From assembly GCA_958439195.1 (NCBI GenBank), contig OY288160.1:186001-250000 (forward strand): a stretch of 64,000 bases of DNA, in the 5' to 3' direction. Positions within the stretch are counted from its first letter, which is position 1. Every line of letters starts with the position of its first letter. The position numbers and the translations under genes are program-made. The notes beneath the pieces are model-generated. The model was not told the DNA's origin. It searched no databases and worked only from the letters and a program-made list of their open reading frames with translations. The DNA comes from an uncultured Paracoccaceae bacterium (GTDB lineage Bacteria > Pseudomonadota > Alphaproteobacteria > Rhodobacterales > Rhodobacteraceae). Of the stretch, positions 8,617 through 51,086 are shown in pieces.

Positions 8617-8654
8617 GCCGCTGTAGCTCAGCTGGTAGAGCACGTCATTCGTAA
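8402..8654 (+). repeat. Tandem duplication (135-bp offset) of the tRNA-Thr 5' half and its leader
   Basis: Bases 8402-8519 and 8537-8654 align without gaps over 118 bp with only a few substitutions (for example AAGGGG against AACGGG, and around GTTGTCGG against GTTAGTAG). A 17-bp joint at 8520-8536 with the inverted pair GTGGG/CCCAC separates the copies. The copies end at the same base of the tRNA anticodon loop. Confidence 0.85.
8482..8519 (+). pseudogene. Truncated tRNA-Thr copy (5' half only)
   Basis: The first 38 bases match the intact tRNA at 8617 from the acceptor arm through the anticodon loop, then the sequence changes to an unrelated 17-bp joint. It has no anticodon 3' stem, T arm or acceptor 3' strand, so it cannot fold as a tRNA. 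The break lies within the anticodon loop, the region where the att identity starts, so it may be scar from an earlier integration or excision. Confidence 0.75.
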
Positions 8655-8692
8655 TGATGGGGTCGGGGGTTCGAGTCCCTTCAGCGGCACCA
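8617..8692 (+). tRNA. tRNA-Thr (anticodon CGT)
   Basis: A 76-base cloverleaf with CCA encoded: acceptor GCCGCTG with CAGCGGC, D arm GCTC/GAGC, anticodon stem CGTCA/TGATG around loop TTCGTAA (anticodon at 8650-8652), T arm with loop TTCGAGT. Its 3' portion from 8647 is the attachment sequence of the element family, so integration of element 1 has rebuilt an intact tRNA here. Confidence 0.93.
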
Positions 8693-8700
8693 TCCTTCTC
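8647..8700 (+). repeat. Attachment site, left copy (attL)
   Basis: 54 bp, identical to 31435-31488 and 51033-51086. It starts in the anticodon arm (ATTCGTAATGATGGGG), runs through the T arm and CCA, and ends 8 bp past the tRNA in CATCCTTCTC-type sequence. Beyond the 54 bp the three copies diverge at once. Confidence 0.93.
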
Positions 8701-8823
8701 ATAGAAAGCCTTTGGGAACCCCGAACTTAGGCTGGCTACCGCACTTTTTCTAGAGTTTTGGCGTCATAGATCTCGCACAAGCACTCAGTTGCGCGGAACC
8801 AATACCATTTATGTCTACGCGGA

Positions 8824-9603
8824 TTAAGCCGCAAGCAGCGCCTCAATCCAAGGTTTGTCGCGGTGAGACCCAATCGCCGCCCGGAAAAACTCAGAATACT
8901 CGGCTTCCGGGGACAAATATTTCCGAAGCTCGCTAACTATCTCAGGTCTATCTCCGCCGAATCTTATGAGTAGGTCTATTCTGGCCCAGCTACTCCTCTT
9001 AAACTCAGGGGTTCCGAAAGCATTGAAGCCAAGCTGCTTTCTAGTAAAGTCTGCCCGAGCGTACTCCCAAGTTCCTTTTTCTGCATTTGGGAATACCTCG
9101 CCACTAATGGCGTGACCCAAGAGCTTGCAATCATCCGCGCAGCACGGGTCAAGGAGCCGAGGCTCTTCACTCTGCAGCAAGCCAGTCGGAACTGAACACC
9201 GTTGTGCTTCATCTTTGATCGGAAACTCATTGCGTTTTCCATAACTATCCTCCGGTCTATTACACCTTTGGCAGCTCAACCGCAAATTCCACCACTCGTA
9301 GGCAAGCCAATAGTACCCAGTATGCCCATCAAGCTCGGCACCATCGACCGTAATTCTCAGCTTTGGCCGAAAATGGTCAACATCAAAGGTCGCTCGAATG
9401 CTCTTTGCCTCACAATACCAGCACTTATCGTGGCTAAAAATTGAAAGCCAAACCTTGAGGACGGTCCAACTTTTTTTATCTCTAAGATATTTAGAACGCT
9501 GTGATTGATGCACGAGTGCCATCAGGCCACTGAACCGACCGGGATAGATCTTGATCCACCTTTTGGGAAGGTTGGGTGGCTGTGGGGAGAATATGTGCCG
9601 CAT
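8824..9603 (-). CDS. HNH endonuclease, PtuB-like (Septu / TIGR02646 type)
   Basis: Probable DNA nuclease partner of the ATPase encoded just before it. In the 259-residue protein a zinc-type HNH domain is clear: CWYC at 61-64, the catalytic DVDHFRPK at 74-81, and CQRC at 111-114, with a tryptophan-rich helix (YYWLAYEWWNLRLS) between them. This CxxC-DHFRPK-WWNL pattern is that of the PtuB/TIGR02646 group, nucleases of Septu and of retron Ec78. The start overlaps the ATPase stop (TAATG at 9601-9605), so translation is probably coupled. It is the last gene of the hsd operon-like run and the first gene inside the left att site. No reverse transcriptase is nearby, so this is not a retron. Confidence 0.8.
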   Translation of the reverse strand: MRHIFSPQPPNLPKRWIKIYPGRFSGLMALVHQSQRSKYLRDKKSWTVLKVWLSIFSHDKCWYCEAKSIRATFDVDHFRPKLRITVDGAELDGHTGYYWLAYEWWNLRLSCQRCNRPEDSYGKRNEFPIKDEAQRCSVPTGLLQSEEPRLLDPCCADDCKLLGHAISGEVFPNAEKGTWEYARADFTRKQLGFNAFGTPEFKRSSWARIDLLIRFGGDRPEIVSELRKYLSPEAEYSEFFRAAIGSHRDKPWIEALLAA

Positions 9604-11282
9604 TACGCTTGATGCTCGTCAGAAGAATTCAAAAGCCCCCTGATAAGTGCCTCAAGTGCCCGCTCCTTGTTCTCCGGTGTAACAATGGCTCCCGATGCCA
9701 CCTCATCCGATGCTAAGTCAAACCTAGCTCTCAAATATTCCTGCTCGAATCTATCACGGGCCGCAAAATTGAAATCAAGCTTGGAGAGTTTCTCGCGCAG
9801 ACTGGCCAATGAGTTACGCTCATCGTCAGTAAGCTCCTGAAGTGTAGATAGGCGGTGCAACTCGACCAAGTCTTTGTTGGTAGACGCATCCAAACTAGAC
9901 CCTAGACCAAACATATCACTGGTTACAATTCCCGAAAACCCCATACCTCTTGGGTCAATGGCAGGGTTTTCCGAATGAACTTTTCTAGCGCCGGGAGCCC
10001 GATACAATATCTGAACCTGCTCTTTGACAAGTTCAGCGATCGCTAGTGGGTTGTGAGTTGTCAACAAAATATGGCTACTTTGCGCAGCGTCATCTCCCTG
10101 TCTGGCGAAACGCTGTAGATAGGTCAAATAATCCACACACCAACGCGGGTTGAGGTGAGTGTCAGGCTCATCCAACAGAAACAGGCTTTCACTCTCAGAA
10201 GTGAATCGCAGTAGTCCCAACACGGTAAGGAGTTGCTGCTCACCTTCGCTGAGTTCTCGAAACGTTACGCTGCCATCATTCTTCTGCAAACGAATGCGTA
10301 TTCGCACTTCATCAATAAGTTGGGAAACATATGTACTTTCCAGGTCCCGAAAGAATTTCGCCGGCGATTGAGATCCAACAAGTTGCCGAAGCGCCTTTAC
10401 GTCTTTTACAAAAAGGTACTTAAACTCCAACTTCTTCGCGTTCCAAAGAGATGTGGCTACCTGGCGACTGATTTGGATCGGCGCCAGTGCAATATCGTAG
10501 AGTCTGCTCAGGTATTCTCGAACCACGCCACGCGCATACCAAAATCGAGAGTCCCCCTCCTTTGACTTCCATGGAGGCTGACGTAGGACGAAAAGAACAG
10601 ATTCGATTCCCTCATCAGGATCAATACCAAGGTGATCCAGCAAGAAGGCACGGACATCATCTGATTGTTGGATCAGAAACGCCAGTAGTACAAACTGGCT
10701 GTGAACTGGTAGAGCGTAGAACAGGCGTTTCAATCCTGGGTCTTTGCCGCTGCGCAATCGTTTGTCGAAGCGTTCCAAATATGGAAGAAAGACGTCATGC
10801 ATCCTTTGACTTTCGCCAGAGTAATAGCAGAAGACATAGCGAGGCAGATGCTTTGCATCGTCTTTCAGGAAAGCAGAAACGCTAATTCTTTTTCCGCGGC
10901 GGGCTGATACTTGAGGCTCGCCTTCAATGAACGGGGTAAGAGTTCCTACCCCATCTGCTTCATCTTGGGTGGCGGTGTGTATGATGAAGACCTCGTCCTT
11001 GCGATCTGGGTCGGCATCTACCTCAATATGGAGCGTATCTTTGCCACTTCCCATACGGTATCGTAAGACGAAGGCAAACGCGGGGGTTTTTTCCCCCATA
11101 ATGAAGTCCCGAAAAATGATTGCCAAAGCCTCAAGGACATTCGATTTACCTGTGCCGTTCCATCCGATAACCACTGTCACCCAATGCTCCTCATCGAAGT
11201 CTATCGTGACATCTTTGAGGTTCTTGAACTGATGCGACGGGCTATCTTTAGAACTGCCGATTGTTATTCTGTCCAAGCGCAT
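9603..11282 (-). CDS. Restriction-associated AAA/ABC-type ATPase, PtuA-like
   Basis: SMC/ABC-type ATPase that probably senses invading DNA or phage activity and controls the HNH nuclease next to it. The 559-residue protein has a Walker A GWNGTGKSN (40-48), an ABC signature LSEGEQQL (near 345), Walker B LFLLDEPDTHLNP (near 370) and an H-loop TTHNPLA (near 410). No TOPRIM domain follows, which argues against an OLD nuclease and for the PtuA type. It starts 7 bp after hsdS, so it probably belongs to the same transcript as the type I restriction system. AT-richer codon use than hsdRMS suggests a separate origin. Known relatives are annotated as restriction-system-associated ATPases. Confidence 0.8.
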   Translation of the reverse strand: MRLDRITIGSSKDSPSHQFKNLKDVTIDFDEEHWVTVVIGWNGTGKSNVLEALAIIFRDFIMGEKTPAFAFVLRYRMGSGKDTLHIEVDADPDRKDEVFIIHTATQDEADGVGTLTPFIEGEPQVSARRGKRISVSAFLKDDAKHLPRYVFCYYSGESQRMHDVFLPYLERFDKRLRSGKDPGLKRLFYALPVHSQFVLLAFLIQQSDDVRAFLLDHLGIDPDEGIESVLFVLRQPPWKSKEGDSRFWYARGVVREYLSRLYDIALAPIQISRQVATSLWNAKKLEFKYLFVKDVKALRQLVGSQSPAKFFRDLESTYVSQLIDEVRIRIRLQKNDGSVTFRELSEGEQQLLTVLGLLRFTSESESLFLLDEPDTHLNPRWCVDYLTYLQRFARQGDDAAQSSHILLTTHNPLAIAELVKEQVQILYRAPGARKVHSENPAIDPRGMGFSGIVTSDMFGLGSSLDASTNKDLVELHRLSTLQELTDDERNSLASLREKLSKLDFNFAARDRFEQEYLRARFDLASDEVASGAIVTPENKERALEALIRGLLNSSDEHQA

Positions 11283-11289: not shown

Positions 11290-12903
11290 CTAGGCCTTGA
11301 GCTTCAGGTGATCAGATAGCTTCCTGCCTTGGTCGTCGGTTATTGACTTGACTTCGAGACGACCCGCCTTGTCCAGTATACGTAACTCCGAATACAGGTC
11401 TTCAATTGTGTTGGTATCCGCGTTTTCCGGCATTCCGCAGCGCTGAAATGCTTCTTGGGCAGGAAGCCAATCGGATGCTTCGCTCAAAACGTCTTCAAGA
11501 GTTCGCCGCATGGCAGCATGTTCCTTTCTTGCGAGCAGCTTACGTACCTGCTTCGCTTTCGGCACTATCTCGCGTGTGGCTTGGATGCGCTTGAGTAATG
11601 CGTCGGCCGGTTCGTCGATCGGATCTTGTGGGACAAGTTCGCCATGGAAGGCTTTGCCAAGGATGGCGGCATCGAGTTTGGGGATGAGTTTGGTGGCAGC
11701 TGTGTGGTCGGCTGACATACGTTCCAGCCAGGCGAAGGCGGAAGCGATGCGGCAAGTGATTTCAGTTTGTTCCTGAAGATGAAAGATCGGTATCTGGAGA
11801 TCGCCAAGTTCCTTGGCATTCACGTTATTAACGCCACTAGTTGAACGAGCGCCCTCCTCAATGACACGGCGAATTGCCGGTGCTTCAAGCATGAACGTTA
11901 GGAACTGAGGAGAGACGAGGTTCCGGTTGGGCCGAATGCGGATCAGGTAGCCCGCGTATGCCATCCCGACAGCCTCGCCTGAAACAAGGGCTGGGCGACC
12001 AACAAGGTCTACGCTTCCGTTTGACCGCACGACAAGGATATCACCGTCGCGAAGGGTGAGCTTTTCAATCTCTTTGCTGTCGAGTTCGGCGTACTTTAGA
12101 TCGTCCAGCCGGATCCGCCCGAATGCCACGTTCGGGATACGAAGCACCGCAATTCCCTTAGGCTCTTCGTAGCTCTTTTGCGCTGTCCCGTATCGTAGGC
12201 CGTCACTCAGCTTGGCGAGCGACATCGGTTTAGGATCGGGTAGGTTCCGTTCTACTCGCCAACCTGCCGTCAACTCACCCGAGAACGCGAGAGCGAGGAG
12301 GCGTTGTTTGTAGCGGGCAATGAGGGTGGGGATGCGGTCAAGGTGGGCACGGGCGCGGGCGGTGCGGGCATTCAACCCATCTACCTTTGCCACTAATCGT
12401 TCTTGTTCTGGTAGAGGAGGTACCGGTAGGCTTAGATTCTTGATCTTCCCGCCGGAAACTCGTTGCCGGGTGGTTCCACCAGCTTCGTTATGCAGAAGCG
12501 CGCGAACATAGGGACTATTAATCGTATGCATTAGCCAGCGTGGTCGTGCTCCAGCGAGGGCGTTATCTGGCCGCCAGACGAACACGTCAACTGCCGTTAC
12601 AGCTTCCTGGCCTATATCAGGGAAGATACACGCGCGGCCCAGTGGGTCGGGCATCCGAGCGATAAGGACATCACCTGGACGAAGAAAAGTACAATTGAGC
12701 CTTCGGGCCGCTTCCAAGTTCATGTAGCGATTTGACTTGTCTACGAAGTAGCCGTCCCCGATATCTGCCAGCTGGATCAGTCGAACTGAGCCAGAAGGGT
12801 CCTGGTCTTTACTTTCAACCCAATCCCCGTCGGTGACAACTCCGGTCTTCCCTGCCAACTCGAGAACAGTTGCCCGCGCCCATCCTCTTGGTAATTCGCT
12901 CAT
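11290..12903 (-). CDS. hsdS: Type I restriction-modification specificity subunit HsdS
   Basis: Gives sequence recognition to the methylase (HsdM2S) and the restriction complex (HsdR2M2S). The 537-residue protein holds two target-recognition domains (about 1-170 and 215-400), each followed by a conserved helical spacer: PLPEQERLVAKVDGLNARTARARAHLD after the first and LQEQTEITCRIASAFAWLERM after the second. A further 110 or so residues at the C-terminus (from about 430) look like an added helical or winged-helix domain and are longer than in classical HsdS. Its start overlaps the hsdM stop by 4 bases (ATGA), and the ATPase gene follows after 7 bp. The recognised DNA sequence cannot be predicted. 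Confidence 0.93.
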   Translation of the reverse strand: MSELPRGWARATVLELAGKTGVVTDGDWVESKDQDPSGSVRLIQLADIGDGYFVDKSNRYMNLEAARRLNCTFLRPGDVLIARMPDPLGRACIFPDIGQEAVTAVDVFVWRPDNALAGARPRWLMHTINSPYVRALLHNEAGGTTRQRVSGGKIKNLSLPVPPLPEQERLVAKVDGLNARTARARAHLDRIPTLIARYKQRLLALAFSGELTAGWRVERNLPDPKPMSLAKLSDGLRYGTAQKSYEEPKGIAVLRIPNVAFGRIRLDDLKYAELDSKEIEKLTLRDGDILVVRSNGSVDLVGRPALVSGEAVGMAYAGYLIRIRPNRNLVSPQFLTFMLEAPAIRRVIEEGARSTSGVNNVNAKELGDLQIPIFHLQEQTEITCRIASAFAWLERMSADHTAATKLIPKLDAAILGKAFHGELVPQDPIDEPADALLKRIQATREIVPKAKQVRKLLARKEHAAMRRTLEDVLSEASDWLPAQEAFQRCGMPENADTNTIEDLYSELRILDKAGRLEVKSITDDQGRKLSDHLKLKA

Positions 12904-14369
12904 TCTATGGCCTCAGCGGCTTCGGCTAGTTCATCAGAGACTGCTTCAATTTCCTCAAGCGCGGCGCGCAAGTGGCCCACGATGGCGGCTGCGATGTCGT
13001 CTGGCTCGGTCAGCCCCTCTTCGGCAACCTCGGTGTCATCACGCAGCCAAGTGATATCTAGGTTATCGTTGCGCTTGCCAATTTCAGCGCGGGTGAACAC
13101 CCGGAACCGCCCTCCTTCCCCCTCATCCACCCGCTTTACTGTGCCATGCGGATCGTCGCCATATGCCTCAATAAAGGGTTCAAAGTCGGCAGTGGTCAGC
13201 GTGCGGGTCTTGCCAAAGCTGGGCATCTGCGCACGCAGATCATAGAACCAAACAGCCTTGGTGGCTCCCACGCGATCCTCTGACTTCTTGGTCAGGAAAA
13301 TCACATTGGTCTTAACTCCCTGCGCATAGAAAATGCCTGTGGGCAGTCGCAGGATCGTGTGAAGGTCGCATAGGTCCATCAGCCAGTTGCGCAGATCGCG
13401 GCCCATGTTGTCTTCGAATAGAGTGTTGTCAGGCACGACAATGGCGGCCCTACCGCCCACCTTCAGTCCGCGGACAACATGCTCAACGAAGGGCAGCGGG
13501 CCTTTGGCGGCCACAGCAGTGATGACGAAGTCACTGCGTGAAACCCGCTCCGGGAACTTGTTGAAGGGTGGGTTGGTCAGGATCAGATCGGCCTTAGCGA
13601 ACTTCTCCGCGTCCGAGGTTAAAGCGTCGATGCAATCGATGGGCGTGTCGATACCATGTAGCAACAGGTTCATGGTGTTCAGCCGGTGGGTACCGGTGAT
13701 CAGCTCCGCGCCCTGATAGACGTTGTTGCGCTGGTTGTGGGCAACCTCCGGCGAAACACCGAACAGGTCATCCGTTTCGCGCATGATGGCGCGATGTGCA
13801 GCAATCAAAAAGCCACCCGTGCCGGCCGCAGGGTCCTGGATGATTTCACCGACCTTGGGTTTCATCAGGTGGATGATGGTTTCGATCAGAGGGCGCGGCG
13901 TGAAGTACTGACCTGCCTTCGACTTGCGCTCGGAAGTGGTCCTTTCGAGCAAGCCCTCGTACAGGTCACCCAGGCCGTCCTCTTCTGCGGCGTACCAGTC
14001 GACTGCGTCAATCGCGGTGATCAGCGAAGTCAGCGCAGTTGCTTTGGTGAGGGAGGTTTTCGCGTCGGTGTAGACTTGCTTGACCAGCGGGAAATCAAAC
14101 CGATCTGACGTGCCGAGTTGCAGAAGGAGTTCGCGATAGCGGATCAACCGCTGTTCGCCTTCCAACTTCTTAAGGGTATCCCAGCGGAACTCTGGTGGCA
14201 GACGTTCCTCCAGCTTGACCCCGTTGCGCTTCACCTCGGACAGCATCTTCAGGAGTAGGAGGTACGTGAGCTCGGTCACATACTCGTAGTAACTGACCCC
14301 ACCGCCCTGCAGGCTTTTCGAAGCGTTCCACAGCTTCTGGACGGTTTCTCTGGCGCGTTGTCCGTTCAT
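12900..14369 (-). CDS. hsdM: Type I restriction-modification DNA methyltransferase HsdM
   Basis: N6-adenine methyltransferase that marks host sites as self. The 489-residue protein has an N-terminal helical HsdM domain, the SAM-binding motif DPAAGTGGFLIAA (near 178) and the catalytic motif LTNPPF (near 266), preceded by the KAGQYFTPR element typical of this group. The frame is open to 14387, but I chose the ATG at 14369 because it overlaps the hsdR stop in TAATG, giving tight coupling; it then overlaps hsdS by ATGA. All three genes look intact, so the system is probably active. Confidence 0.95.
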   Translation of the reverse strand: MNGQRARETVQKLWNASKSLQGGGVSYYEYVTELTYLLLLKMLSEVKRNGVKLEERLPPEFRWDTLKKLEGEQRLIRYRELLLQLGTSDRFDFPLVKQVYTDAKTSLTKATALTSLITAIDAVDWYAAEEDGLGDLYEGLLERTTSERKSKAGQYFTPRPLIETIIHLMKPKVGEIIQDPAAGTGGFLIAAHRAIMRETDDLFGVSPEVAHNQRNNVYQGAELITGTHRLNTMNLLLHGIDTPIDCIDALTSDAEKFAKADLILTNPPFNKFPERVSRSDFVITAVAAKGPLPFVEHVVRGLKVGGRAAIVVPDNTLFEDNMGRDLRNWLMDLCDLHTILRLPTGIFYAQGVKTNVIFLTKKSEDRVGATKAVWFYDLRAQMPSFGKTRTLTTADFEPFIEAYGDDPHGTVKRVDEGEGGRFRVFTRAEIGKRNDNLDITWLRDDTEVAEEGLTEPDDIAAAIVGHLRAALEEIEAVSDELAEAAEAIE

Positions 14370-17300
14370 TACCCGGCTTCTTTCCAAATGTTTTCAGTGA
14401 TGTCGCGCATCACCTGTTCCAGCTCGCCATTAAACACCTTGTCGATACGTGACCAGCCGCCTTGGGAGGCGAAAGGCTCATCGTCGAAGGCCGCACGGTC
14501 GATGACGTCTTGTTTCTCGATCTGTTGCCCAATTCGTTCAATCCACTTCCGCTGAACATCCGTCCAAGCCCGCTTGCGCAGCAGGGCATCGACCGCGTGG
14601 CGGACGCGCAAGGAGTATGGCACCAAGGCGTCGCCCAGCGCTGCCTGACGAATGAAGCCGATGATGGATGCCGCGATGTCCTCGTTCTTGGCATCTGCCC
14701 AAGCGCGTTTGATCTTCACATCGGTGAAGCCTGCGGCGTCGAGCTCAAGGCGCAGCTGTCGCAGCTCTTCCCGGGTCAGCTCCTGGGGCCGCTGAACGAC
14801 GATCTTCAGTGCAGCGATCGTGTTGACGTTGGCCCGCACGAATTGGGCGAAGGCGTCAAGGAAGTCCTCCGGCTTGGTCCCTGTGCCGTAGCCGCGCGTT
14901 ACGGTAGTAACCTGATCGTCGTGCTCTGAAATCGGCACATAGCGCGGTGTGCCGTCTTCGGTAGTCCAATCCAAGATGGCGCCAAGACCGGGGTGGGCGG
15001 CCAACCAGGCACTAAGGCCAGTTGGTTCGCCGTTGATGAAGCGTTGAAGGCTCGCTTCCGGGGTTTCGCCTGCCTCTTTTTCGTAGCGGGCGCGGGCTTC
15101 GACCGGCAGCTTGGCCAGGCGACGGCGAAGGCGCACGATGATCTGCTCCCGGACACGCGCCTTGTGCGCATCATCGGCAGGACCCGCCATCTCAGCGAAG
15201 AGCTTTTCCAGGGTGAAGGTGGGATCGGCCGCTACTGGCCGCATGTCGGTTAGGTTTTGCAGATGGGCATACAGATCGACTGCATCGAAGATGCGGAATG
15301 CTGATTTCCCAATCTCGGGACACAAGCGCGTCGCGCGCCCCAACATCTGTTCGTATAGGATCCTGCTGTTCACCCGCCGCATGAACACAAGGTTCGTGAT
15401 GCGCGGCACGTCGATGCCGGTGGTTAACAGGTCGACGGTAACAGCAATCTTGGGCAGGGGGTCGTTGCGGTAAGACAGGATGAGCTTACCGACCTGATCA
15501 ACCTTTCCGGTGATCTTGCGAATGGTGTCGTCAGGAAGGGGACCATAAGCCTCGCGGAAAGCAATGCGCAGCTCGTTCACCAAAATGTCCGCATGCGCAT
15601 CCGATACGGCAAAGACCAATGTTTTGTCGGCTTCGCCAGGGTCGATGTATTTTGTCAATTCCTGCGCAATGACCCGGTTAAACGGGACTGTGATGACACT
15701 TTTGTTGAACTGCTCGACTTCGAAATCAACGTCGTCGGGCAAGGTGGCGCGTTCAACCTCACCGCTGGCAACATGAACAACGTCGACCTCGTCGTCCCGA
15801 TGGAAATGGATGCCCTGCTCTGACAGTAGGGTGCCAATGCGGATAGGAGGTTCATGGTCAACAAGATAGTCGTCGATCACCGCTTCTCGATAGGAATAGG
15901 TGAAGACGGGCAACCCGAAGATGTCTGTCGTATGCAGGGCTGGCGTAGCCGTCAGGCCGATCTTGACCGCATCGAAGTGCTCTAGGACGCGCCGGTACTT
16001 TGATATGTAGTCTTCCTGATTGCGGAAGGCCAAATCCCCTTCGGACATCTCGCGATCAAGCAAGTAACCACGGTGGCACTCATCGACGACCATCAGGTCA
16101 TACTGATCGATCGGCGGGGCATCTTCGGCACTTTCCGAGTACAGCACGCGCCGCACCAGGCCTTGAATGGTACAGATATGTATGCGGGTATCCTCGTCCG
16201 GTCTGACATCATCCAGGCCTTTCAGCCCGAAGATGTCCGCAAAGGTTTTCCCGCTGATGACCTTGGTTGTCGAAAACTCACGGGCGGTCTGCTCGCCCAG
16301 CGCGCTGCGGTCCACAACGAAACAGACCCGCCGAAAGCGCCGCGCGGCGATGAGACGGTACAGCATGGCAATTGCGAGCTTCGTCTTGCCGGTTCCCGTC
16401 GCCATAGCCACCAGCATAGAGCGCCGGTTTTCGCGTAGGGTCGCTTCAACGGCCTGAATTGCGCGCTGCTGATAGGGACGAAGCGGGAAACCGAAGTCAA
16501 ATGGCTGGTTGGCCATTGCCTTATGCGCGGCGTCGCGGTCGACGGTCAGGCGCTCCAATAGACCTTGTGGCGTGGGCCAGCCTGCCAGCACTTCGGCCGG
16601 GTTGTTCGGATCGCGCAAGTCGCGCCGCCATATCCCAGAAAGGGTTTCTACCTGGCGAAGGTAAGGGCGGCCATTCGTAGAGAACGCGAAAGGCGCTTGA
16701 TGTACGCCCCAAGGGGCGCCTTCCGCCCTCTCTGCCTCAACAAACCTGAAGCCGGCCGCATAGCGTTCAGCCTGGCGCAGCACGTCCATGACGTTCCGGT
16801 TCTTGCGCTTCGCCTCGACCGTGCCAACCAACGTCAGTCCACAAAACAACGCGTAGTCGGCCGGGCCGCTGTCGGTGGGCCATTCCGCAATCGCGCGGTT
16901 TCTGCCCTTGATCGGTCGCGCACCGGAAGCAAACCGAAGGGTTCGGGTGTCAGCTTCCCAGCCCGCGTCCCGCAGCTGCTGGTCGATCAGAGTGCGTGTC
17001 TCGGCTTCGTCGAGATTGATTTTTTCGGCGGCCGATCGTGCCAGTTCAAGGCGAGTGTTCCGGGTGGCGGCAGCTTCGGGTACTGTGGCCTCCGCGAATT
17101 GCCGCAGACGCTCCGCCAAAGATGCCTTGTCCCGTTCGGCCTCCTCGGCCAGCTTTTCCCAGACCTCGCGTTCTTCACGTTCTCTAGCCGCCCGTTCCTC
17201 TGCCGTCTGGTGTTGCTTCGTCACCTCGTCAGCGTTTGCACGTGCACGCTCGGCTTCCGATAGGGCCGCTGCGAGGGAGGAACGTAGGGCATCAAGTTCT

Positions 17301-17749
17301 TCGCGCAATCCAGCTTCGGCGAGGTGCGGGGCTGCGGGCGGCACGAAGGGGCCGAGCTTCAGCGCCGCATCGTGAAAGGTCCGCACGTACCATGCCGCAA
17401 GCTGGCGCGCGAGCTTGAGTGCATGAAGTGCATCACCGTACCCGTCCATGCCATCGTGCGCCGCTTGGTTGCCGACAACGCGCAAGCCATGGAAAAGGTC
17501 ACCCACTTCCCGCGGCAGCGAACATTCAAAGCGCAGGCGACGCAGCACATCGGAAAACCCGTCGGCGGGAGTGACGGTCAGGCCAAAGCGTCCCGCTGCC
17601 AGCTTGGCGGCCAGCTCGGCCAACTGTCGAAGCTTGATTAGGCAGGTGTTGGGATCGTCGCGGAAGTACTTCTCGGCGAGCATGCCGAGCCGGTAAAGCT
17701 GCCCATCGTGGGCTTCGACAAAATGAAAATTTGAATCAATTGCGGGCAT
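14369..17749 (-). CDS. hsdR: Type I restriction endonuclease subunit HsdR
   Basis: Motor and nuclease subunit: translocates DNA with ATP and cuts unmodified DNA away from the recognition site. In the 1126-residue protein a DUF4145-like N-terminal domain (about 1-120) is followed by a long coiled coil rich in Glu, Arg and Ala (about 130-225), the HsdR nuclease domain (with EAKRKNR carrying the E-x-K motif), the SF2 motor with MATGTGKTKLA (near 450) and DECHRGY (near 555), and an EcoEI-type C-terminal domain. The start is put at 17749, 5 bases after GGGAG; an upstream ATG at 17773 is in frame but less well placed. It is the first gene of the restriction run. Confidence 0.94.
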   Translation of the reverse strand: MPAIDSNFHFVEAHDGQLYRLGMLAEKYFRDDPNTCLIKLRQLAELAAKLAAGRFGLTVTPADGFSDVLRRLRFECSLPREVGDLFHGLRVVGNQAAHDGMDGYGDALHALKLARQLAAWYVRTFHDAALKLGPFVPPAAPHLAEAGLREELDALRSSLAAALSEAERARANADEVTKQHQTAEERAAREREEREVWEKLAEEAERDKASLAERLRQFAEATVPEAAATRNTRLELARSAAEKINLDEAETRTLIDQQLRDAGWEADTRTLRFASGARPIKGRNRAIAEWPTDSGPADYALFCGLTLVGTVEAKRKNRNVMDVLRQAERYAAGFRFVEAERAEGAPWGVHQAPFAFSTNGRPYLRQVETLSGIWRRDLRDPNNPAEVLAGWPTPQGLLERLTVDRDAAHKAMANQPFDFGFPLRPYQQRAIQAVEATLRENRRSMLVAMATGTGKTKLAIAMLYRLIAARRFRRVCFVVDRSALGEQTAREFSTTKVISGKTFADIFGLKGLDDVRPDEDTRIHICTIQGLVRRVLYSESAEDAPPIDQYDLMVVDECHRGYLLDREMSEGDLAFRNQEDYISKYRRVLEHFDAVKIGLTATPALHTTDIFGLPVFTYSYREAVIDDYLVDHEPPIRIGTLLSEQGIHFHRDDEVDVVHVASGEVERATLPDDVDFEVEQFNKSVITVPFNRVIAQELTKYIDPGEADKTLVFAVSDAHADILVNELRIAFREAYGPLPDDTIRKITGKVDQVGKLILSYRNDPLPKIAVTVDLLTTGIDVPRITNLVFMRRVNSRILYEQMLGRATRLCPEIGKSAFRIFDAVDLYAHLQNLTDMRPVAADPTFTLEKLFAEMAGPADDAHKARVREQIIVRLRRRLAKLPVEARARYEKEAGETPEASLQRFINGEPTGLSAWLAAHPGLGAILDWTTEDGTPRYVPISEHDDQVTTVTRGYGTGTKPEDFLDAFAQFVRANVNTIAALKIVVQRPQELTREELRQLRLELDAAGFTDVKIKRAWADAKNEDIAASIIGFIRQAALGDALVPYSLRVRHAVDALLRKRAWTDVQRKWIERIGQQIEKQDVIDRAAFDDEPFASQGGWSRIDKVFNGELEQVMRDITENIWKEAG

Positions 17750-18246
17750 ACGACTCCCGATGCACGGTACCACTGACGGCTGCCACTCGACCGGCCTGAA
17801 CTTTATGAACGGCGATGGTGCAAACCACGATGGTTAAACCCTCAAGACGAACGGGAAAACTTGGGCTGATCTAGCCCAGCCTTGCCGAAGGTTAGGCGGA
17901 CCGCCGCGTCATTTCAATCATTGCGTTTGTCGTTGCACCCTTTCCGGTATACCCGTTACGGGTCCCTTCTTGCTTGGGCGACCCACTAACTGAGTTGCCT
18001 GTCTGGCGCCATCAACGGTCCGTACAGGCGATCCGCCGGCTAACCTAGCGGGGTTGGTGCGCGCGAAGGTCAGCACCCATCCTGCGGCGGCCCTGCCGCG
18101 CACCGCAGCCACGCCGGGTTTAACCGTTTGGCAGGGCTATTGCGGCCAAGTGTGTTTGCCGCAGCCGTAGCAAACCCTGTATACCCCCAAAACCAGTGGG
18201 GCCGGCAAACGCCGACCCCACCGTTATCTTCAGCAGCCCCTGGCTA
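17750..18246. other. Gene-free stretch upstream of hsdR
   Basis: About 500 bp without a supported protein gene. The left part must hold the promoter of hsdR; the right part holds the terminator hairpin of the primase gene. GC-rich imperfect repeats are present but no feature stands out. Confidence 0.5.
18196..18221 (-). terminator. Terminator-like hairpin after the prim-pol gene
   Basis: An 11-bp stem with one wobble pair (GTGGGG.CGGC arms) around a 4-base loop, 26 bp past the stop at 18247. On the minus strand it continues TGGTTTTGGG, so the T tract is short. Confidence 0.5.
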
Positions 18247-21780: not shown

Positions 21781-21798
21781 AGTCGCCTCCCCGTTGCG

Positions 21799-40130: not shown

Positions 40131-40241
40131 GTTCGGCAGCTGATCGTTTCGTCGAGAGCCCCTTGCGTTCAAACCGGGTCCAGTGGAGGGCGTACCCTGG
40201 GGTTGTAGCGCGCGGACCCGTGCCTGGGGTGGGGTGTAGCC

Positions 40242-40916: not shown

Positions 40917-40921
40917 GGTCG

Positions 40922-42928
40922 TCACTTCGCGGCGCGGCTGCTTGACTGCCCATCCATGACGGCTAGTGAGCCTGGCTGGGTGGACAATCCGCAACTCCGC
41001 AGGAAGTCAAACGTACCATCGTAATATCGGCGCGGCCGGGTTGGGTCGTTGTCGTCGCCATGGGGTACAAAAATGACCAGCCCTTGCCGCGCCCTGGTTA
41101 GCAATACGCGATACGCATTGACCAGGTACAACTGCCGCTCCGATGCATTTACCGACTGCCAAACCGTGCCCCGGAAGGCATGGCACTCCCAGCCGCGTCT
41201 TCCATATCGAAGGTTCGCGTCCCAACAGACGCCGGCCCAGTCCAGCTCAAGCCCTTGCACGTCGAACTCTGTGGCGACTTCCTCGAGATAGAAGGCAGAC
41301 CGAACATCCTCGCGGTCGTTCAGGAACCAGGTTGGAGGATCGATGGCAGCTTTGATGTGGATGCCCTCCGGCCGCAGTCTGTGTGCACCAGATGACGCCA
41401 CGAGGCCAAAACGCTCTGACCCGCGCGCAATGCTGCGCAGCCATGCCTTTGCTTGCGACAGATCGCGGGTAAGCCAAATCGGGTAGCGCTGCTTAACCCG
41501 CCCGAGCAGTGTCGATGCGGCCGTCGCGTCACCGGCAAGGACCGCTCCGACGAAGCCGGAAAGGACTTCAGCCCGGAACGATCGCATCGACACAGAAAGG
41601 TGTAGATCGGGGTGCTTGTGAACGCTCGGTGACTGCAGGCGGCGCTTGGCATCTTGATCGACCGTGTAGTGCGGATCCTCCAGGAGGGCAGATGCGTGCA
41701 AATCCCAGTGCGGGAAACGGGTTTGCAGCGCCTTCAGCCACTCGGCGATGCCAGCTTCGCCAGTGTTGATTTCTTGTCCACCGCCGATCAGGCAAACAAC
41801 TGTGCACCAATCGGCATGACGATCCATAACGCTTACCAAGAACTCGGGCTCTGACTGGTCAAAACCGTCCTGGCCCCGCTTGCGCTGCATGAAGTTTGAC
41901 GCTTGCTCCTGCGTCCAGGCGCGCTGGGCCTCATCAAAAACCACCACCTTTTCGGCCGGCGCCGAGGTGTCACGAAGGTACTCGTCGCGGAAGTGGTGGA
42001 TATTCTGGACGAAGCTGCGCACCTTCCGCTGCGCATCAGATTTTTTGATACATTCGCGCTCAGCTTGATCACGCGCCAGAGCTTCACGCAGGACATCGAC
42101 GAGGGGTCCATTGCCGGACAGGAAGACGGCATGCTCGTCCGTGTGTTCCATCGCGCGCAGGGTGGCAATGTTCAGACCGGCCAACGTCTTTCCGGCGCCA
42201 GGCACCCCAGTGATGAAGCAGATGGACTTTCGTCCGGCCGCTTTTGACTGCTCGATGATGTCGGCGATCCGGCCGCTGGTCGCTTGGAGGTTCTTCGCAC
42301 CAGCATCCGAACGGGAAATCTCTAGCACATTGTGGTTCTGGTAGAGTGCCTGGGCGGCTTCGATGATCGTCGGCGTTGGCTGATAGCCGCTGGCCTCCCA
42401 CGCGGCTGGATCGATGGCGAGCGCAGCGAGGCCATCGTGACCTGTTGAAATCACCTGTGCGAGGCCTGTGGGGCCAAGGCATATTGGTGCGGCGACAAGA
42501 TCGGCCGCGAAGGTCACCGGCGCTGGCTGTGAGACCGCAGCGGTCGCGATAAGCACGGGCACAATCGGCGCGGCATGACTGCCCCGATGGAAGTTCTTTA
42601 GGTCGAGGGCGTAGTCATGCACCTGGTCAATCGCGTGGCGATCGAAGCTCTGTGAGCCAACCTTGAACTCAACGACGGTGATGGTCCCGCCGATCAGCAA
42701 AACGCAGTCTGCGCGCTTGCCCATGCGGGGGATGCTGAACTCGAAATAGATACTGCCGGCCGACAGCCCCCCCAGCTCCGACTTCAGGAGCCTAATCTGC
42801 GCAATCCAGGCACGCTTTTGCTCTTGCTCTAAGTCGTGCCGGTGGTTGCGTGACAGCTTGCCTAGGATCGAGTCTTCCGGCTCGCGGAGGAAGGAGGGCA
42901 GGGGCGCCATGTAGTAAGCAATGGACAT
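40922..42928 (-). CDS. DUF2075 helicase with N-terminal PD-(D/E)XK-like nuclease domain
   Basis: The 668-residue protein has two parts. Residues 60-110 hold a nuclease-like strand set, KRADCVLLIGGTITVVEFKVG, with Asp and E-x-K in the order of PD-(D/E)XK enzymes. From about 235 there is an SF1-like helicase/ATPase of the DUF2075 (Schlafen-type) group with TGVPGAGKTLAGL (near 244), VVVFDEAQRAWTQ, CLIGGGQEINTGEAG and a final YRVLLTRARQGLVIFVP. Such nuclease-helicase fusions often act in phage defence. The chosen start at 42928 follows AGGAAATTC. The thermonuclease-like gene is directly downstream. Confidence 0.75.
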   Translation of the reverse strand: MSIAYYMAPLPSFLREPEDSILGKLSRNHRHDLEQEQKRAWIAQIRLLKSELGGLSAGSIYFEFSIPRMGKRADCVLLIGGTITVVEFKVGSQSFDRHAIDQVHDYALDLKNFHRGSHAAPIVPVLIATAAVSQPAPVTFAADLVAAPICLGPTGLAQVISTGHDGLAALAIDPAAWEASGYQPTPTIIEAAQALYQNHNVLEISRSDAGAKNLQATSGRIADIIEQSKAAGRKSICFITGVPGAGKTLAGLNIATLRAMEHTDEHAVFLSGNGPLVDVLREALARDQAERECIKKSDAQRKVRSFVQNIHHFRDEYLRDTSAPAEKVVVFDEAQRAWTQEQASNFMQRKRGQDGFDQSEPEFLVSVMDRHADWCTVVCLIGGGQEINTGEAGIAEWLKALQTRFPHWDLHASALLEDPHYTVDQDAKRRLQSPSVHKHPDLHLSVSMRSFRAEVLSGFVGAVLAGDATAASTLLGRVKQRYPIWLTRDLSQAKAWLRSIARGSERFGLVASSGAHRLRPEGIHIKAAIDPPTWFLNDREDVRSAFYLEEVATEFDVQGLELDWAGVCWDANLRYGRRGWECHAFRGTVWQSVNASERQLYLVNAYRVLLTRARQGLVIFVPHGDDNDPTRPRRYYDGTFDFLRSCGLSTQPGSLAVMDGQSSSRAAK

Positions 42929-43316
42929 GTATGAATTTCCTGGCTCCGGATACTGCCCAGACAACTGCACCTATCGTTGTGTTGCAACCGGCATCGACCG
43001 GCGACCATTTCCCAAAAGTAAGAAGCAGTTAGAACAATAAGCATCGTTCTTGAGGTAGGTGCCAGCATGTACCCTGCCGATCGAGCCCGGCGGCCGAGCC
43101 AGCGAAGAAAGCCGGGAGCCGTTAGAGTCGCGCGGACCTTCGCCATAGCCGTTACGCGGACGTTCGGCTGATCGGCTGCCCATTCGTGGCGACTATCGAG
43201 CTTGAAAGGGTGGTCACTCCATACTTGAGACACACTGTGGTCTAGTTTCGAGCGCTTTCTGTTTCCAAACTATGGACTCATTCTTCTGCACCAACTTCCG
43301 CGAGCTTTGTTCAAAT
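42929..43316. other. Gene-free stretch between divergent units
   Basis: About 390 bp between the DUF2075 gene and the membrane protein gene. No supported gene. An alternative ATG for the next gene lies at 43272. GC content falls toward the right, where the AT-rich cargo block begins. Confidence 0.5.
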
Positions 43317-47170: not shown

Positions 47171-50100
47171 TCAGTGTTCGCCAGCTCCACCGGAGAAGAA
47201 CACGACCGAAACCCGACGCCCAATCTCCGGCACATGATCCCGCGACAAGAGCTCGGCATCCGCGATGACCTGGCCCATCAGGTCGTGAATTTGCTCTGAT
47301 CGAGCGCGGTCGTCTTCGAGCTTTTGCAAGATGGCCTGGATGGCGATGTAGCCCTTTGGAAGGTCTTCATAAGCAAAGCTATCCCGTACCTCCTGCTTGG
47401 CCTGCTCCCAGAAGGGATCGAGTAACCTGCTCCATGCTTCGCAGATCATTTCAACGGCGGGTAGAGACAGGTACCCGAACATCTGTTGGTCGTCCTGCGC
47501 ATTGCCTGCCCGTCGACTGACAAACTCAGCGCAGGCCTTCAATAGGCTTTCGACGCGTGCGGGACGCAGGTCCCACTCAGTCAATTGGCCAAGCTGAGCG
47601 GAGACAGTTTCAAGTGCCGTAGCGAGTTCCCCATCGGTCATCCTGCTGTTGGCCATGCCAAGGCGAAGGGTCCGGTCGTACGCAGCTTCAAGCACATTTG
47701 CACATGTCAGCTGGCTTCGCTCCACGACAAGGCCTTCCCCAGTAGGGCGTAGCATCAATAAGCGAGGAGGGAAGAAACTGGTGGGCTTTTCGACACCCTT
47801 AATATGCAGAGCCGTGAACCGCTCTCTGGACGACAGCAGGGCCAGCTCGGCGCCCCAAGTTCCATCTATCCTTGCCTTTCGGATGAGGTCGTATCGGTCC
47901 GGCGAAATTCGTTGCCTCGTTCGTGCCAAGACATCGTGAACGTTGTTGTCCCGCAAGCGCCTGGTCGACGCAAGGTACCGCGTGACGCTTTCCAGGATCA
48001 CTTCGGTGTCGTCTGAGCCATCCTCCTGAACTGCGTCAATCAGTTCTTCGCCCGCGAGTGTTCGGTAGTTCTCGATGCGGTTTGCTACCTTTTCATCAGA
48101 CGCAAACTGGCCGACAGGCACATCGACCAGATGGTAGTTCACAATCCCGAACTGGCTGTCGATGCGGTCAATGCGGCCCAAGCCTTGGATGAGCTCCTTC
48201 AGGTTAGAAGTCACCCCAAGCAGAAGCAACGTGTCTGCGGACTGGAGATTGATGCCTTCTGCCATCTTGTATGTCAGGAACACCGATGCCGGGCCATCGG
48301 GCGCGTTCCTGCCGCCAGGTCGGAAGTAGGACTCGACGCTCTTGCCGTCCTTAATCCGCCGGAAACCATCCGGCCCGCCGCCGAAGATAGCCTTGACCGC
48401 TCTATCGTCGCCCTTCGTCTGAGTTCCGACGACGAAGTTGGTATGTTGACCACGCCGAGAAAGCGCCTCAGCGAAGATCTCAAGCGTATCCGTGCGTTCC
48501 GCAAGAAAGACCACGCGGTCCTTCGCCTGCTGGATGCGGAGGCAGGCATCGTAGCGTTTTTCGTCTAGGTCTCGGAGTGGTTGGGAGTTCAGCTTTCGCG
48601 CTAGGGCTTCACATTTCTCGGCTACGGCCACTAAGTCCAAACCGAGCATCGCAAACATGTCGGCCTGATCAGGGTGGGGCGCTTTGCGACCGCGTTTTGA
48701 GCCTTGCTCAAACTCGCGCAGCCATTTTCCGATCACGCCATGGGACATTTCCCAGGCTGCCTGTGCCGAGCTTACCCTTAGAATGTTCAGCAGGTTTCTG
48801 ATGTGCAGCTGATCTTGTGTGCTTTGCTGGGTCTTGACGTGGCCGAAGCGGCTTTTCTCGACGGCCGTGACCTTTCCACCCGGCGCGAGTTCATTGCAGA
48901 GCGCCAGAATCTCATCGAGCCGAGCCTTCTGCGGCTTCGTGAGTTCCAGCGTTCTTGAACGACCGTGGTTCGCAAGCTTTGGGTAGCTGTGCTGGGTCCG
49001 ATCCTCGCTCTCGCCGATGCACCGCCGCTGTCGTCGGGTCAGGAAAGGCGACAGCAATCCTGAAAGTTCGGTGCGAGCCTGGCGAGACAGTGCTGTGTCT
49101 GGTTCCGCGAGTACCGCAAGTGGCGCCTTGTGGTCGTAGATATCGGGTGACCGCTTCATTTCGCGGTCGAAGAGTTCACCCATGGCCTGGATGTAATCTG
49201 GCGTCATGAAGATCGACGCACGTTTCTCCTGCATGTGGGCAAGCCAGTCGACGTCCCGATTGCCGAGGAGGGTCGCGGACAGACAGACATTCCAACTGGG
49301 AGGTGCAAGCTCGATGGCGGCTGCCATCTGTGAGGCATGTTCGAAGCCCGGTGTGACCGTGTGGCTTTCGTCGATGATCAGTACACCGTACTGATCCAGC
49401 CGGAGGCCAGCTGTCTTGTCGTCACCGGCCCCGCGCAGGTGGTTCTTTGCGAGACTGGTGTTCGCGATCGCAACCAAAGAGTTCGTGGAGTGCTTTTCCC
49501 AGCTGCGAATGACCTTGGGTGGCGCAACAACTGCCGCGTTCTTGCGGGCGACGCCGTGAATCGGCGACCTCGGGACTACGCGCGAAAAGGTCTCGGAGAG
49601 CGCTTCGGCAAGGTGGCAGCCGATCTCTGTCTTCCCAGAACCCGTGGGGGCTTCGACAAAGGCGATGCCGTGATCGTAGGTGATGGAGCACGCTTCGTAG
49701 ACCAGTTCCTGTTGATACTCGTACAGCGTGTGACCGGTGATGTCGTGGCGACTTCCCGTCAGCCAAGGCCCAAAGCCTTTCTGTTCGGCAATCATGCGCG
49801 CCACAGCATCTTCGGCTGTCGTAGGCTTGATGAGCCTGTTCAGTATCTCCAGCGCTTCGGCGGTCCAGTCGGTCGAAACCTCCCAGATTTGTTCGGCCGC
49901 GCGGCGCCGCTCTTCCTGTAGCTCATGCGAGCCAACATCCAGGCCGTCGGCATATTCAATGTTGCTGTAGAGGCCAGATCGGGAGAAGTTCGCTGAACCC
50001 GCCACCGCGCCGACGCGGGAGCTAACGATTTTCGAGTGCATCCGGCGATCTCCAGAGATCCCCAGGCGGGACTGCGCCAGTATAGGGTCAAAGACGCGGA

Positions 50101-50539
50101 GCTCGATCTTTCGCATCTCGATGGCGCGCTTCGCCAGCACTGCCAAGAGGTCGTCGTCGTCTTCGACCTGCAGTCCCGACTTCTCGAGCCAGTAGAGTTT
50201 CATCTCCTCGGTGACGGGGCGCGGCTTGGTTAGGCGACGAGAGTTTCCTGTATCGATGCCGAAGGAAATTCGAATGTGAACCTCTGGGTTCGCGTCGGGG
50301 TCCCGTAGCTCTTTGACCTCCCGCATCAGCACCGCCAACGACGACAAGAAGTCTTGATAGCCCGTCACGATCAGGCAGTCGCCCGAGGAGATGTGCGGCC
50401 TGTAGAGCTCAATGACCGGACGATCGATGTTCGTTCCGACCTTTGGCTTTTCAGCGAGGTCAGCCTCAGCCAACGGCGTGGCTTCAGTTCGGCGAGTGCT
50501 CTGCGGCTTCGAACGGAGCCAATTCGGAAGCGAAAACAA
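47171..50539 (-). CDS. Phospholipase D-like and SNF2-like helicase fusion
   Basis: A 1122-residue single-gene candidate defence protein. The N-terminal 200 residues resemble one half of a phospholipase D-type nuclease, with RMHSKIVSSRVGAVAGSANFS (HxK plus GS-N, near 173-190). From about 280 it has an SF2/SNF2-like motor: APTGSGKTEIG (near 300), LLIIDESHTV (near 389), and near 770-800 a second lobe with YKMAEGINLQSADTLLLLG and LIQGLGRIDRIDSQFG. The C-terminal 250 residues are not recognised. Start is TTG at 50539, directly after a stop and without a clear ribosome-binding site. It is the cargo gene next to the right end of element 2. DISARM has PLD and helicase in separate genes; its methylase and other genes are missing here. 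Confidence 0.75.
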   Translation of the reverse strand: MFSLPNWLRSKPQSTRRTEATPLAEADLAEKPKVGTNIDRPVIELYRPHISSGDCLIVTGYQDFLSSLAVLMREVKELRDPDANPEVHIRISFGIDTGNSRRLTKPRPVTEEMKLYWLEKSGLQVEDDDDLLAVLAKRAIEMRKIELRVFDPILAQSRLGISGDRRMHSKIVSSRVGAVAGSANFSRSGLYSNIEYADGLDVGSHELQEERRRAAEQIWEVSTDWTAEALEILNRLIKPTTAEDAVARMIAEQKGFGPWLTGSRHDITGHTLYEYQQELVYEACSITYDHGIAFVEAPTGSGKTEIGCHLAEALSETFSRVVPRSPIHGVARKNAAVVAPPKVIRSWEKHSTNSLVAIANTSLAKNHLRGAGDDKTAGLRLDQYGVLIIDESHTVTPGFEHASQMAAAIELAPPSWNVCLSATLLGNRDVDWLAHMQEKRASIFMTPDYIQAMGELFDREMKRSPDIYDHKAPLAVLAEPDTALSRQARTELSGLLSPFLTRRQRRCIGESEDRTQHSYPKLANHGRSRTLELTKPQKARLDEILALCNELAPGGKVTAVEKSRFGHVKTQQSTQDQLHIRNLLNILRVSSAQAAWEMSHGVIGKWLREFEQGSKRGRKAPHPDQADMFAMLGLDLVAVAEKCEALARKLNSQPLRDLDEKRYDACLRIQQAKDRVVFLAERTDTLEIFAEALSRRGQHTNFVVGTQTKGDDRAVKAIFGGGPDGFRRIKDGKSVESYFRPGGRNAPDGPASVFLTYKMAEGINLQSADTLLLLGVTSNLKELIQGLGRIDRIDSQFGIVNYHLVDVPVGQFASDEKVANRIENYRTLAGEELIDAVQEDGSDDTEVILESVTRYLASTRRLRDNNVHDVLARTRQRISPDRYDLIRKARIDGTWGAELALLSSRERFTALHIKGVEKPTSFFPPRLLMLRPTGEGLVVERSQLTCANVLEAAYDRTLRLGMANSRMTDGELATALETVSAQLGQLTEWDLRPARVESLLKACAEFVSRRAGNAQDDQQMFGYLSLPAVEMICEAWSRLLDPFWEQAKQEVRDSFAYEDLPKGYIAIQAILQKLEDDRARSEQIHDLMGQVIADAELLSRDHVPEIGRRVSVVFFSGGAGEH

Positions 50540-51032
50540 TGGCTAATACCGTGCTTGGAATTCTGTCGAGTATGCTGGCGGATCGTCCCTCTGGGCAACG
50601 ACTCTTTTTCATCAGCATCGTGCCTAAACTAAGGCTGCATTGGTCTCTCCCGAGGGCGCAAAATAGCTCCAGACAGGGGGTGGACCGGGAGCGGGCCTGC
50701 GCCTGGTCGCTGCAGTAGCCGTGCTTGGGGTGGGGTGGCCCTGGGTTTGACCTGTTTGCAGGGTTTGCCAGCGCTGCTGCTTGCCTATTAGCGGGGCAGG
50801 GCGGGCCCACAACTTGCCTGGCCACCAAGCCGTGCGCGGGCTGCCAGATGTCTGGTGCTTGCTCAAGGTGGCGGTCCCTACTAGTAGGGGATTAGTAGGG
50901 TTTGTTCCTCTAAGGTTCTCTAGTGCCGTCTGACGTGGTCCAAAGGCGAGACTGAAAACTTTTCTTTTCAAGCAAGGTGTTAGCGTGCTCTAGGAAGCGT
51001 GCGCTAGCGCCGTCCAACGACGCTTGCGCAAA
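50540..51032. other. Gene-free right end of element 2
   Basis: The promoter side of the PLD-helicase gene and then the 412-bp terminal repeat. No protein gene. Confidence 0.6.
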
Positions 51033-51086
51033 ATTCGTAATGATGGGGTCGGGGGTTCGAGTCCCTTCAGCGGCACCATCCTTCTC
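50675..51086 (+). repeat. Right-end terminal repeat of element 2 (412 bp)
   Basis: Same length as 31077-31488 and similar throughout, including CCCTACTAGTAGGGG with GATTAGTAGGG behind it at about 50877-50898, and the att core. Differences are scattered single bases, so both copies are under similar constraint or have diverged little. Confidence 0.86.
51033..51086 (+). repeat. Attachment site, right copy (attR)
   Basis: 54 bp identical to 8647-8700 and 31435-31488. Beyond it the chromosome resumes with AGTTTCACCACAACGC, which should be the original sequence downstream of tRNA-Thr. Confidence 0.93.

Follow-up and report, generated by a model that had tools for sequence, protein, structure and literature searches.

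P4-like and PICI-like satellites combine an integrase, an AlpA/excisionase-like regulator, a primase or VapE-type gene and a variable anti-phage cargo. In the tRNA-dependent lysogeny of actinobacterial temperate phages, which has experimental proof and has evolved more than once, integration takes place at a core of 8-17 bp, with paired putative arm sites on either side, and does not rebuild the tRNA, the phage bringing the cognate gene (Guerrero-Bustamante and Hatfull 2024, PMC10865867); according to the same source, its prevalence beyond the phages of Actinobacteria needs study. Prophages and islands of Sinorhizobium meliloti inactivate a tRNA gene and bring an isoacceptor, tRNA-Thr(GGU) being among those of the islands, and PMC11476347 states that there is no evidence for the use of these carried genes as new integration sites. 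In Dehalococcoides, one island follows another in tandem at ssrA, bounded by 20-bp repeats of the 3' end of this gene, and a serine recombinase is used (PMC3146451). Here we describe two related integrative islands, A and B, at one tRNA-Thr gene of an uncultured Paracoccaceae bacterium of the Rhodobacterales (assembly GCA_958439195.1, contig OY288160.1, positions 186,001 to 250,000; this stretch of 64,000 nucleotides is called the window). It is very probable that these islands split tRNA-Thr(CGT) at the anticodon loop and carry a whole replacement gene, and that A is nested in the tRNA carried by B. A preliminary description of the same DNA had proposed two related islands in tandem at one tRNA-Thr gene, of which the relatedness and the common site stood and the tandem order did not.

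Structure of the tRNA-Thr locus

The draft genome to which the window belongs comprises 44 contigs with a total of 4.23 Mb and is 96% complete. As the preliminary description had recognised, a 54-55 bp stretch of the 3' side of tRNA-Thr is present in identical copies at 8647, 31435 and 51033, the middle and right ones being 3' fragments, and a pattern search of the whole draft located these three 3' halves and no fourth. The left copy had been taken for the border of the array and for the place where the repeat rebuilds the tRNA. In fact, the island brings a complete tRNA of its own: the disrupted 5' half (8482-8519) ends after the anticodon loop TTCGTAA, 97 bp follow and then the intact gene begins, so that the true left border lies at 8513-8519. 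The integration core TTCGTAA (7-8 bp) is found at both junctions, and the sequence beside the cut 5' half is no tRNA 3' half. Furthermore, the segment 8402-8519 repeats 8537-8654 at 92.4% identity, head-to-tail and with an offset of 135 bp.

The same border was obtained from relatives belonging to the same genus as the window genome (G002, G004, G011, G012 and G018). Nine fetched loci of this genus have one tRNA copy each, in stretches of 4 to 15.6 kb, with no match to integrase, VapE, Prim-Pol or AlpA downstream, and G011 and G004 contain one island each (15.5 and 12.9 kb). G011 and G012, whose site is empty, have the native upstream flank in common. On the left, G011 presents this native flank, a tRNA 5' half ending ATTCGTAA, ~100 bp with AGTAGGGCCATAGTAGGGCC and a complete tRNA-Thr; on the right, the island end, with more GTAGGG motifs, is followed by ATTCGTAA and what remains of a tRNA 3' half, after which G011 and G012 agree at 98% over 1,500 bp. 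This comparison shows that the crossover is the anticodon loop of 7 bp (7-8 bp with the adjoining base) and that the intact tRNA belongs to the island, and the 54-bp repeats are therefore not the borders they had been thought to be. Over the 97-bp stretch compared, the outer left end of the window is 83.5% identical to the left end of A and 82.5% to that of G011.

AGTAGGG is found in pairs spaced 11 bp apart at the three complete ends of the window (Table 1), that is, three pairs against none in 200 first-order Markov windows, and each of the right ends of 13 other islands compared has at least one AGTAGGG in its last 180 bases. Because the integrase has an Arm-DNA-bind_3 domain, the paired motifs are probably its arm-type sites.

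These data fit a scheme in which TTCGTAA, the 7-bp anticodon loop of tRNA-Thr(CGT), is where the tyrosine integrase would cut. As attP and attB share only this loop and at most one flanking base, integration would destroy the target tRNA; at the right junction of G060 the base before TTCGTAA differs from that of the host, which assigns this base to the island. The broken gene would be replaced by the complete tRNA-Thr with the same anticodon that stands ~97 bp inside the left end, an arrangement directly visible in the window and from which complementation would follow. The carried tRNA is in turn an intact attB, so that the next island could insert there. Accordingly arranged, A (22.9 kb, 8520 to 31434/31435) would sit inside the tRNA of B, split into 8482-8519 and 31436-31480, and B would border at its right end on a split tRNA belonging to C, a third island or a relic. 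One left end with its 5' half would have been lost, probably by recombination between near-identical left ends, and homologous recombination between stacked islands would reshuffle their modules, as the chimeric islands suggest. Of the three excised circles proposed in the preliminary description, those of ~22.9 and 42.5 kb would make sense under this scheme; the one of 19.6 kb would not be expected, because it requires recombination between two right-end sites.

The right copy had been regarded as a clean border between island and chromosome. It is followed by CATCCTTCTC, an island-type flank also seen after tRNAs inside islands of the same genus, and differs in this from the right-hand copies in G011 and G004, which are followed by CACTTCC. 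We read 51033-51087 as the start of a third island or of its relic (C).

Other islands are known to form tandem arrays through site-specific accretion (PMC3146451), and tRNA-carrying islands joined end to end at an existing attachment site would explain the single extra left end of the window. However, under accretion the first right end should lead into a new left end and a whole tRNA, and both at 31435 and at 51033 a 3' half follows directly. Moreover, the cut 5' half has island-type sequence upstream, as expected for the carried tRNA of a resident island, and we consider accretion distinctly unlikely. For the right junction it was rejected, there being no left end after 31435. An assembly artefact at the middle repeat might also be suspected in a draft of 44 contigs. 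Nevertheless, the repeat itself measures 54-55 bp, the longest exact stretch common to both island bodies is 92 bp, which speaks against an artefact, and independent relatives with this layout exist for A as well as for B; an artefact has next to no probability.

The carried gene is the sole CGT threonine tRNA found by pattern search in the 96% complete draft, the other threonine tRNAs examined having TGT and GGT anticodons. A TGT tRNA could read ACG by wobble. The carried tRNA would complement the disrupted gene, and the host may depend on it. If the only tRNA-Thr(CGT) of the host is mobile, the host would be left without this tRNA whenever the newest island disappears otherwise than by precise excision. 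We find it reasonably likely that the locus works as a self-renewing landing pad, in which a newcomer destroys the tRNA of the resident, supplies its own and buries the resident, that tRNA-Thr(CGT) is now mobile DNA and that the pile mixes defence genes. The carried tRNA is also flanked by an inverted repeat, GAGAAGGAT (8607-8616) and ATCCTTCTC (8692-8701), which lengthens its acceptor stem, and similar flanks are present in several other islands.

Split junctions in the family and in the genus

Two samples were searched: 394 genomes of the family, drawn evenly with nearly one per genus, and 385 genomes of the class. The query described a tRNA 5' half that breaks off behind the anticodon loop, and a complete tRNA downstream formed no part of it. 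The split junction was present in 18 of the 394 family genomes, each of a different genus, and the reversed-pattern control gave none. ARAGORN located a complete tRNA-Thr downstream in 17 of the 18, with its start 88-110 bp beyond the cut; the contig of G336, the remaining one, stops at 87 bp. The anticodons of the carried and the cut tRNA were the same in all 17 cases (15 CGT, and two GGT in G031 and G037), and in G031 and G283 the integrases group in a clade of their own (100/100), which together indicate that the carried tRNA follows the target of the integrase. In G283 (L133/L134), ~3 kb lies between the left ends of a GGT and a CGT island, both of which carry a tRNA of their own. The pattern misses drifted junctions such as that of G283, which has one inserted base, and the junctions of G011, G004 and L067 were found outside the family search. 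The four matches in the class sample were the window's genome and three ordinary complete tRNA-Thr(GGT) genes, so that no true split junction was seen outside the family among these 385 genomes. The islands measured span 9.6-23.9 kb.

The doubled 5' half could be viewed as a local tandem duplication of the region upstream of the tRNA, unrelated to insertion, and the copies in the window are indeed head-to-tail. Nevertheless, what precedes the cut in G011 and in several other genera is either native sequence or bears no relation to the stretch between cut and tRNA, and the complete tRNA turned up behind a query that held the cut 5' half only, so that we give this explanation hardly any credence. 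The 135-bp left repeat as a local duplication was rejected, as the outer flanks differ in G011 and in other genera.

Acceptor stems were compared in 12 loci, entered by hand. The stem of the carried tRNA pairs with itself in all 12; pairing between the two outer halves is complete in 10 and has one mismatch each in L067 and G088, as expected if outer halves decay. Six loci differ enough to be tested, and in every one of them a hybrid of outer and carried halves loses at least one base pair; in the other six, the window among them, the test is uninformative. G060 is the clearest example, as its host stem (GCCTCAA...TTGAGGC) and its carried stem (GCCGCTG...CAGCGGC) plainly belong to different genes. 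These results bear on the classical tandem array, in which the tRNA 3' half is the attachment core and the gene is rebuilt from the host 5' part and the island 3' part. The three identical copies of 54-55 bp are what such an array would give, and G383 (C16; L127/L128, L068), where the left end is absent and the tRNA stands directly behind native-looking sequence, looks like the classical rebuilt state. On the other side, a classical array leaves unexplained the cut 5' half and the ~100-bp island end before the intact tRNA in 17 of the 18 junctions, and a gene made up of the host 5' part and the island 3' part in G060 would be mispaired at three positions of its acceptor stem. It is also disfavoured by the comparison of G011 with G012, there being no long identity of attP and attB that would restore the tRNA, and altogether we regard it as very unlikely.

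Nesting in carried tRNAs appears to occur in two genera besides that of the window. The DNA after the split tRNA of G359 matches island starts from the first base (G391, 79% over 229 bp; G354, 82% over 193 bp), and that of G088 matches the start of the island of G129 (89% over 126 bp).

Together with G383, several results weigh against the proposed scheme. Among 16 outer 3' flanks, agreement with an island start right from base one is confined to G359 and G088, and the other 14 show no such agreement. The flank of B matches G011 and G004 only from ~1 kb in, its first kb matching no other island start, and 51088-51330 matches only the window's own copies among the fetched sequences. G018, an empty site with native upstream flank, has CATTCTTCTC after its tRNA, so that such a flank alone is no proof of an island and C could be an old scar. 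The window contains three 3' halves, one of them in the intact tRNA, against two 5' halves, which obliges us to postulate the loss of a left end and its 5' half. A promoter scan of 8340-8800 gave no promoter-like site for the carried tRNA. An exact attP-type pattern had no match in IMG/VR, although it would miss the variant left end of the window, and a looser attP pattern gave no circular junction in 23 genomes. Finally, we infer integration, excision and tRNA expression in these islands from their sequence.

Of the 394 family genomes, 14 have a close integrase at E 1e-110 or better, and 11 of the 14 are among the 18 with a split junction. As to the remaining three, the junction of G283 was seen by eye, G359 is on a contig without the left side and G383 is without the left end. 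In G129, junction and integrase are on different contigs. Seven of the 18 junction genomes gave no integrase match at E 1e-110; G088 has none among 9 open reading frames (ORFs) by Pfam and none by tblastn, and G259, G037 and G148 gave no match by tblastn in the fetched stretches. The island of G088 (L172), of ~9.6 kb and with both ends and the carried tRNA, appears to contain fragments of Type I restriction-modification genes, a transporter and regulators, and is possibly non-autonomous. The closest integrases in named contigs are mostly from Rhodobacterales (Ruegeria, Roseovarius, Flavimaricola and others). No close relatives of the tRNA region were found among PLSDB plasmids, and neither the left-end motif nor the integrase had a match in IMG/VR.

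At the same tRNA-Thr, G002 contains a 25-kb element (L083:1199-19901 plus L084) with a different integrase-like gene, a weak match at L083:1335-2642 (E 5e-4, below the cut-off of Pfam). Its 5' half lies at L083:1199 and its own, clearly different complete tRNA-Thr(CGT), which an AbiJ-like gene adjoins, at L083:2722. This element is seemingly unrelated and would represent a second origin of the same strategy.

Gene content and exchange of modules

The features of the window are listed in Table 1; Pfam was applied to the main ORFs and PHROGs to 10 of them. The preliminary description was right in giving each interval its own integrase and replication gene, while the AlpA-like genes that it added depend on weak matches to PHROG 66 (annotated as 'excisionase and transcriptional regulator'). 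Its remark that virion genes are absent agrees with the scans, as none was recognised by Pfam on the main ORFs or by PHROGs on the 10. Its view of the cargo as almost wholly defence-like is fair for A (Septu, Type I restriction-modification, EVE-HNH, PD-Lambda-2-like) and holds in part for B, several genes of which are without assignment.

Table 1. Coordinates of the features in the window, with the evidence on which each was named
Feature	Position	Strand	Evidence
Putative left-end sequence of older resident island, outer side truncated; one AGTAGGG at 8458	8402-8481	+	Similarity to 8537-8654
5' half of the tRNA-Thr read as that of the resident island; left junction of A, TTCGTAA 8513-8519	8482-8519	+	Sequence; same type of junction in 17 genomes besides G011 and G004
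Left end of island A; AGTAGGG at 8582, 8593	8520-8616	+	Motif and end comparison
Complete tRNA-Thr(CGT) carried by island A	8617-8692	+	ARAGORN
PtuB, Septu-like	8824-9603	-	PADLOC E 3.9e-52
PtuA, Septu-like	9603-11282	-	PADLOC E 4.3e-253
Type I restriction-modification HsdS, HsdM, HsdR	11290-17773	-	Pfam; PADLOC for HsdR
Prim-Pol replication protein	18247-20808	-	PF09250 E 1.1e-19; PHROG 29234
Small helix-turn-helix (HTH)/AlpA-like ORF	20642-21016	-	Weak: PHROG 66 E 0.004, HTH_17 E 0.017
Tyrosine integrase A, Arm-DNA-bind_3 and Phage_integrase (PF13356, PF00589)	21799-22959	-	Pfam
EVE + HNH protein	23259-25109	+	EVE E 2.4e-11; HNH E 3.4e-4, just under cut-off; PADLOC mREase_IV E 2.8e-8
HTH protein similar to PD-Lambda-2_B	25975-27075	-	PADLOC E 6.5e-33
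GT4-conflict glycosyltransferase-like protein	27896-29725	+	Pfam
Pentapeptide/ResIII helicase-like protein	29715-31112	+	Pfam
Right end of A; AGTAGGG at 31285, 31296	31065-31434	+	91.3% to right end of B over 424 bp
Right junction of A (TTCGTAA 31436-31442) and 3' half of resident tRNA, read as that of B	31435-31480	+	Sequence
ORF, first gene of B after the tRNA 3' half	31717-32391	+	ORF; no Pfam or PHROGs match
Split transposase-like ORFs (insertion-sequence-like), 32753-33124 and 33222-33554	32753-33554	+	Named from sequence reading alone
VapE-like replication protein	33743-36157	-	PF05272 E 4.2e-70; 87% amino acid identity to that of G011
AlpA/excisionase-like HTH ORF	36030-36368	-	PHROG 66 E 1.1e-6, weak
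Tyrosine integrase B (PF00589, PF13356)	36819-37979	-	Pfam; 94% amino acid identity to that of A
EVE + HNH protein of B	38280-40130	+	Pfam
Schlafen group 3 helicase-like protein, candidate defence PDC-S41	40922-42970	-	Pfam; PADLOC E 4.2e-291
Large ResIII/DEAD helicase-like protein	47171-50539	-	Pfam; 83% amino acid identity to G383 copy over 1122 amino acids
Right end of B; AGTAGGG at 50883, 50894	50663-51032	+	Match to right end of A
Right junction of B and 3' half of third tRNA (half itself 51034-51078), flank CATCCTTCTC	51033-51087	+	Sequence

The integrase gene is interior, between the tRNA-proximal replication block and the cargo block. An EVE + HNH gene (616 amino acids) adjoins it in A, B and G110, part of the gene being present in G157, and its product is possibly a modification-dependent (Type IV) nuclease that travels with the integrase. 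The first of the split transposase-like ORFs of B (32753-33124) has a match beside the right end in G383.

A and B have in common the module of integrase and EVE-HNH gene (21712-25248 and 36732-40267; 3.5 kb, 88.9%) and the right end (31065-31488 and 50663-51086; 424 bp, 91.3%), and differ in their replication genes. The stretch 33578-36664 of B, with the VapE and AlpA-like genes, is 85.5% identical in DNA to the stretch after the carried tRNA of G011, and the integrase of B is only ~61% identical to that of G011, which makes B look like a chimera. In Flavimaricola marinus (G383/L068), one island contains relatives of the left block of A (HsdR 55% and Prim-Pol 65% at the amino acid level) and also of the right block of B (Schlafen-type protein 72%, helicase 83%). 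Module exchange between such islands is well supported by these comparisons, and stacking could be what drives it. The left end of A is closest to that of G011 (89.7% identity); its right end is 57.5% identical to that of G011 and 68.5% to that of G110, and this mismatch in affinity may be the trace of a left end swapped with a resident.

To the right of the array, from 51323 to 64000 and on to ~69000, there are genes for NnrS, a Crp-type regulator, an MFS transporter and the alpha and beta subunits of nitrate reductase. In G018 this nitrate-respiration block is on a 120-kb contig and 88% identical over 8 kb. The DNA immediately downstream of the site in G012 was not found in the window genome (40 of 234 first-look candidates scored), and a piece 7-11 kb downstream in G012 has its counterpart on the contig of the array, ~58 kb further left, indicating that the right side of the array is rearranged.

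Implications and comparison with known systems

The corrected, nested reading is more interesting than the original tandem one. Together with G359 and G088, the array provides evidence for the use of carried tRNAs as new integration sites, and it offers a simple rule for the piling up of defence islands at one tRNA. Island-finding methods that look for a rebuilt tRNA and a 3' fragment will misplace the left border of such islands and may count mobile tRNAs as host genes. The nesting model, in addition, gives testable predictions on the circles and on the need for the carried tRNA. Searching by title and start of the abstract, we found no description of nesting in carried tRNAs, subscription journals being mostly outside this search.

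The islands have in common with P4-like and PICI-like satellites an integrase, an AlpA-like gene (weak in A), a primase/replication module and a variable cargo. They differ from them in that the integrase gene is interior and not beside the attachment site and in that the tRNA is replaced and not rebuilt. No packaging, terminase or capsid-remodelling genes were recognised in the ORFs scanned (PHROGs on 10 proteins only), and two exact patterns and one integrase search gave no relative among IMG/VR viral contigs. The serial insertion at one RNA gene and the array separated by gene fragments are as in the ssrA islands of Dehalococcoides, whereas the landing pad here would be a gene inside the resident island and the insertions would be nested. 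The elements of S. meliloti are likewise alphaproteobacterial and likewise replace a tRNA, but the carried tRNAs described here appear to be reused as sites.

The closest likeness in mechanism is to tRNA-dependent lysogeny, with which the islands share an arm-binding tyrosine integrase, a short core, a tRNA that is not rebuilt and paired putative arm sites. Unlike those phages, the Rhodobacterales islands are without recognised virion genes, and for this reason we say that they work like tRNA-dependent lysogeny and not that they are prophages using it. Moreover, their tRNA is located just inside the left end beside the arm sites, their targets are tRNA-Thr CGT and GGT, and one island appears to insert into the tRNA of another; the passages of PMC10865867 at hand describe no such nesting. 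Replacement of a tRNA by integrating elements is known, and what appears to be new is the combination of islands without recognised virion genes with a carried tRNA that seems to become the next landing site.

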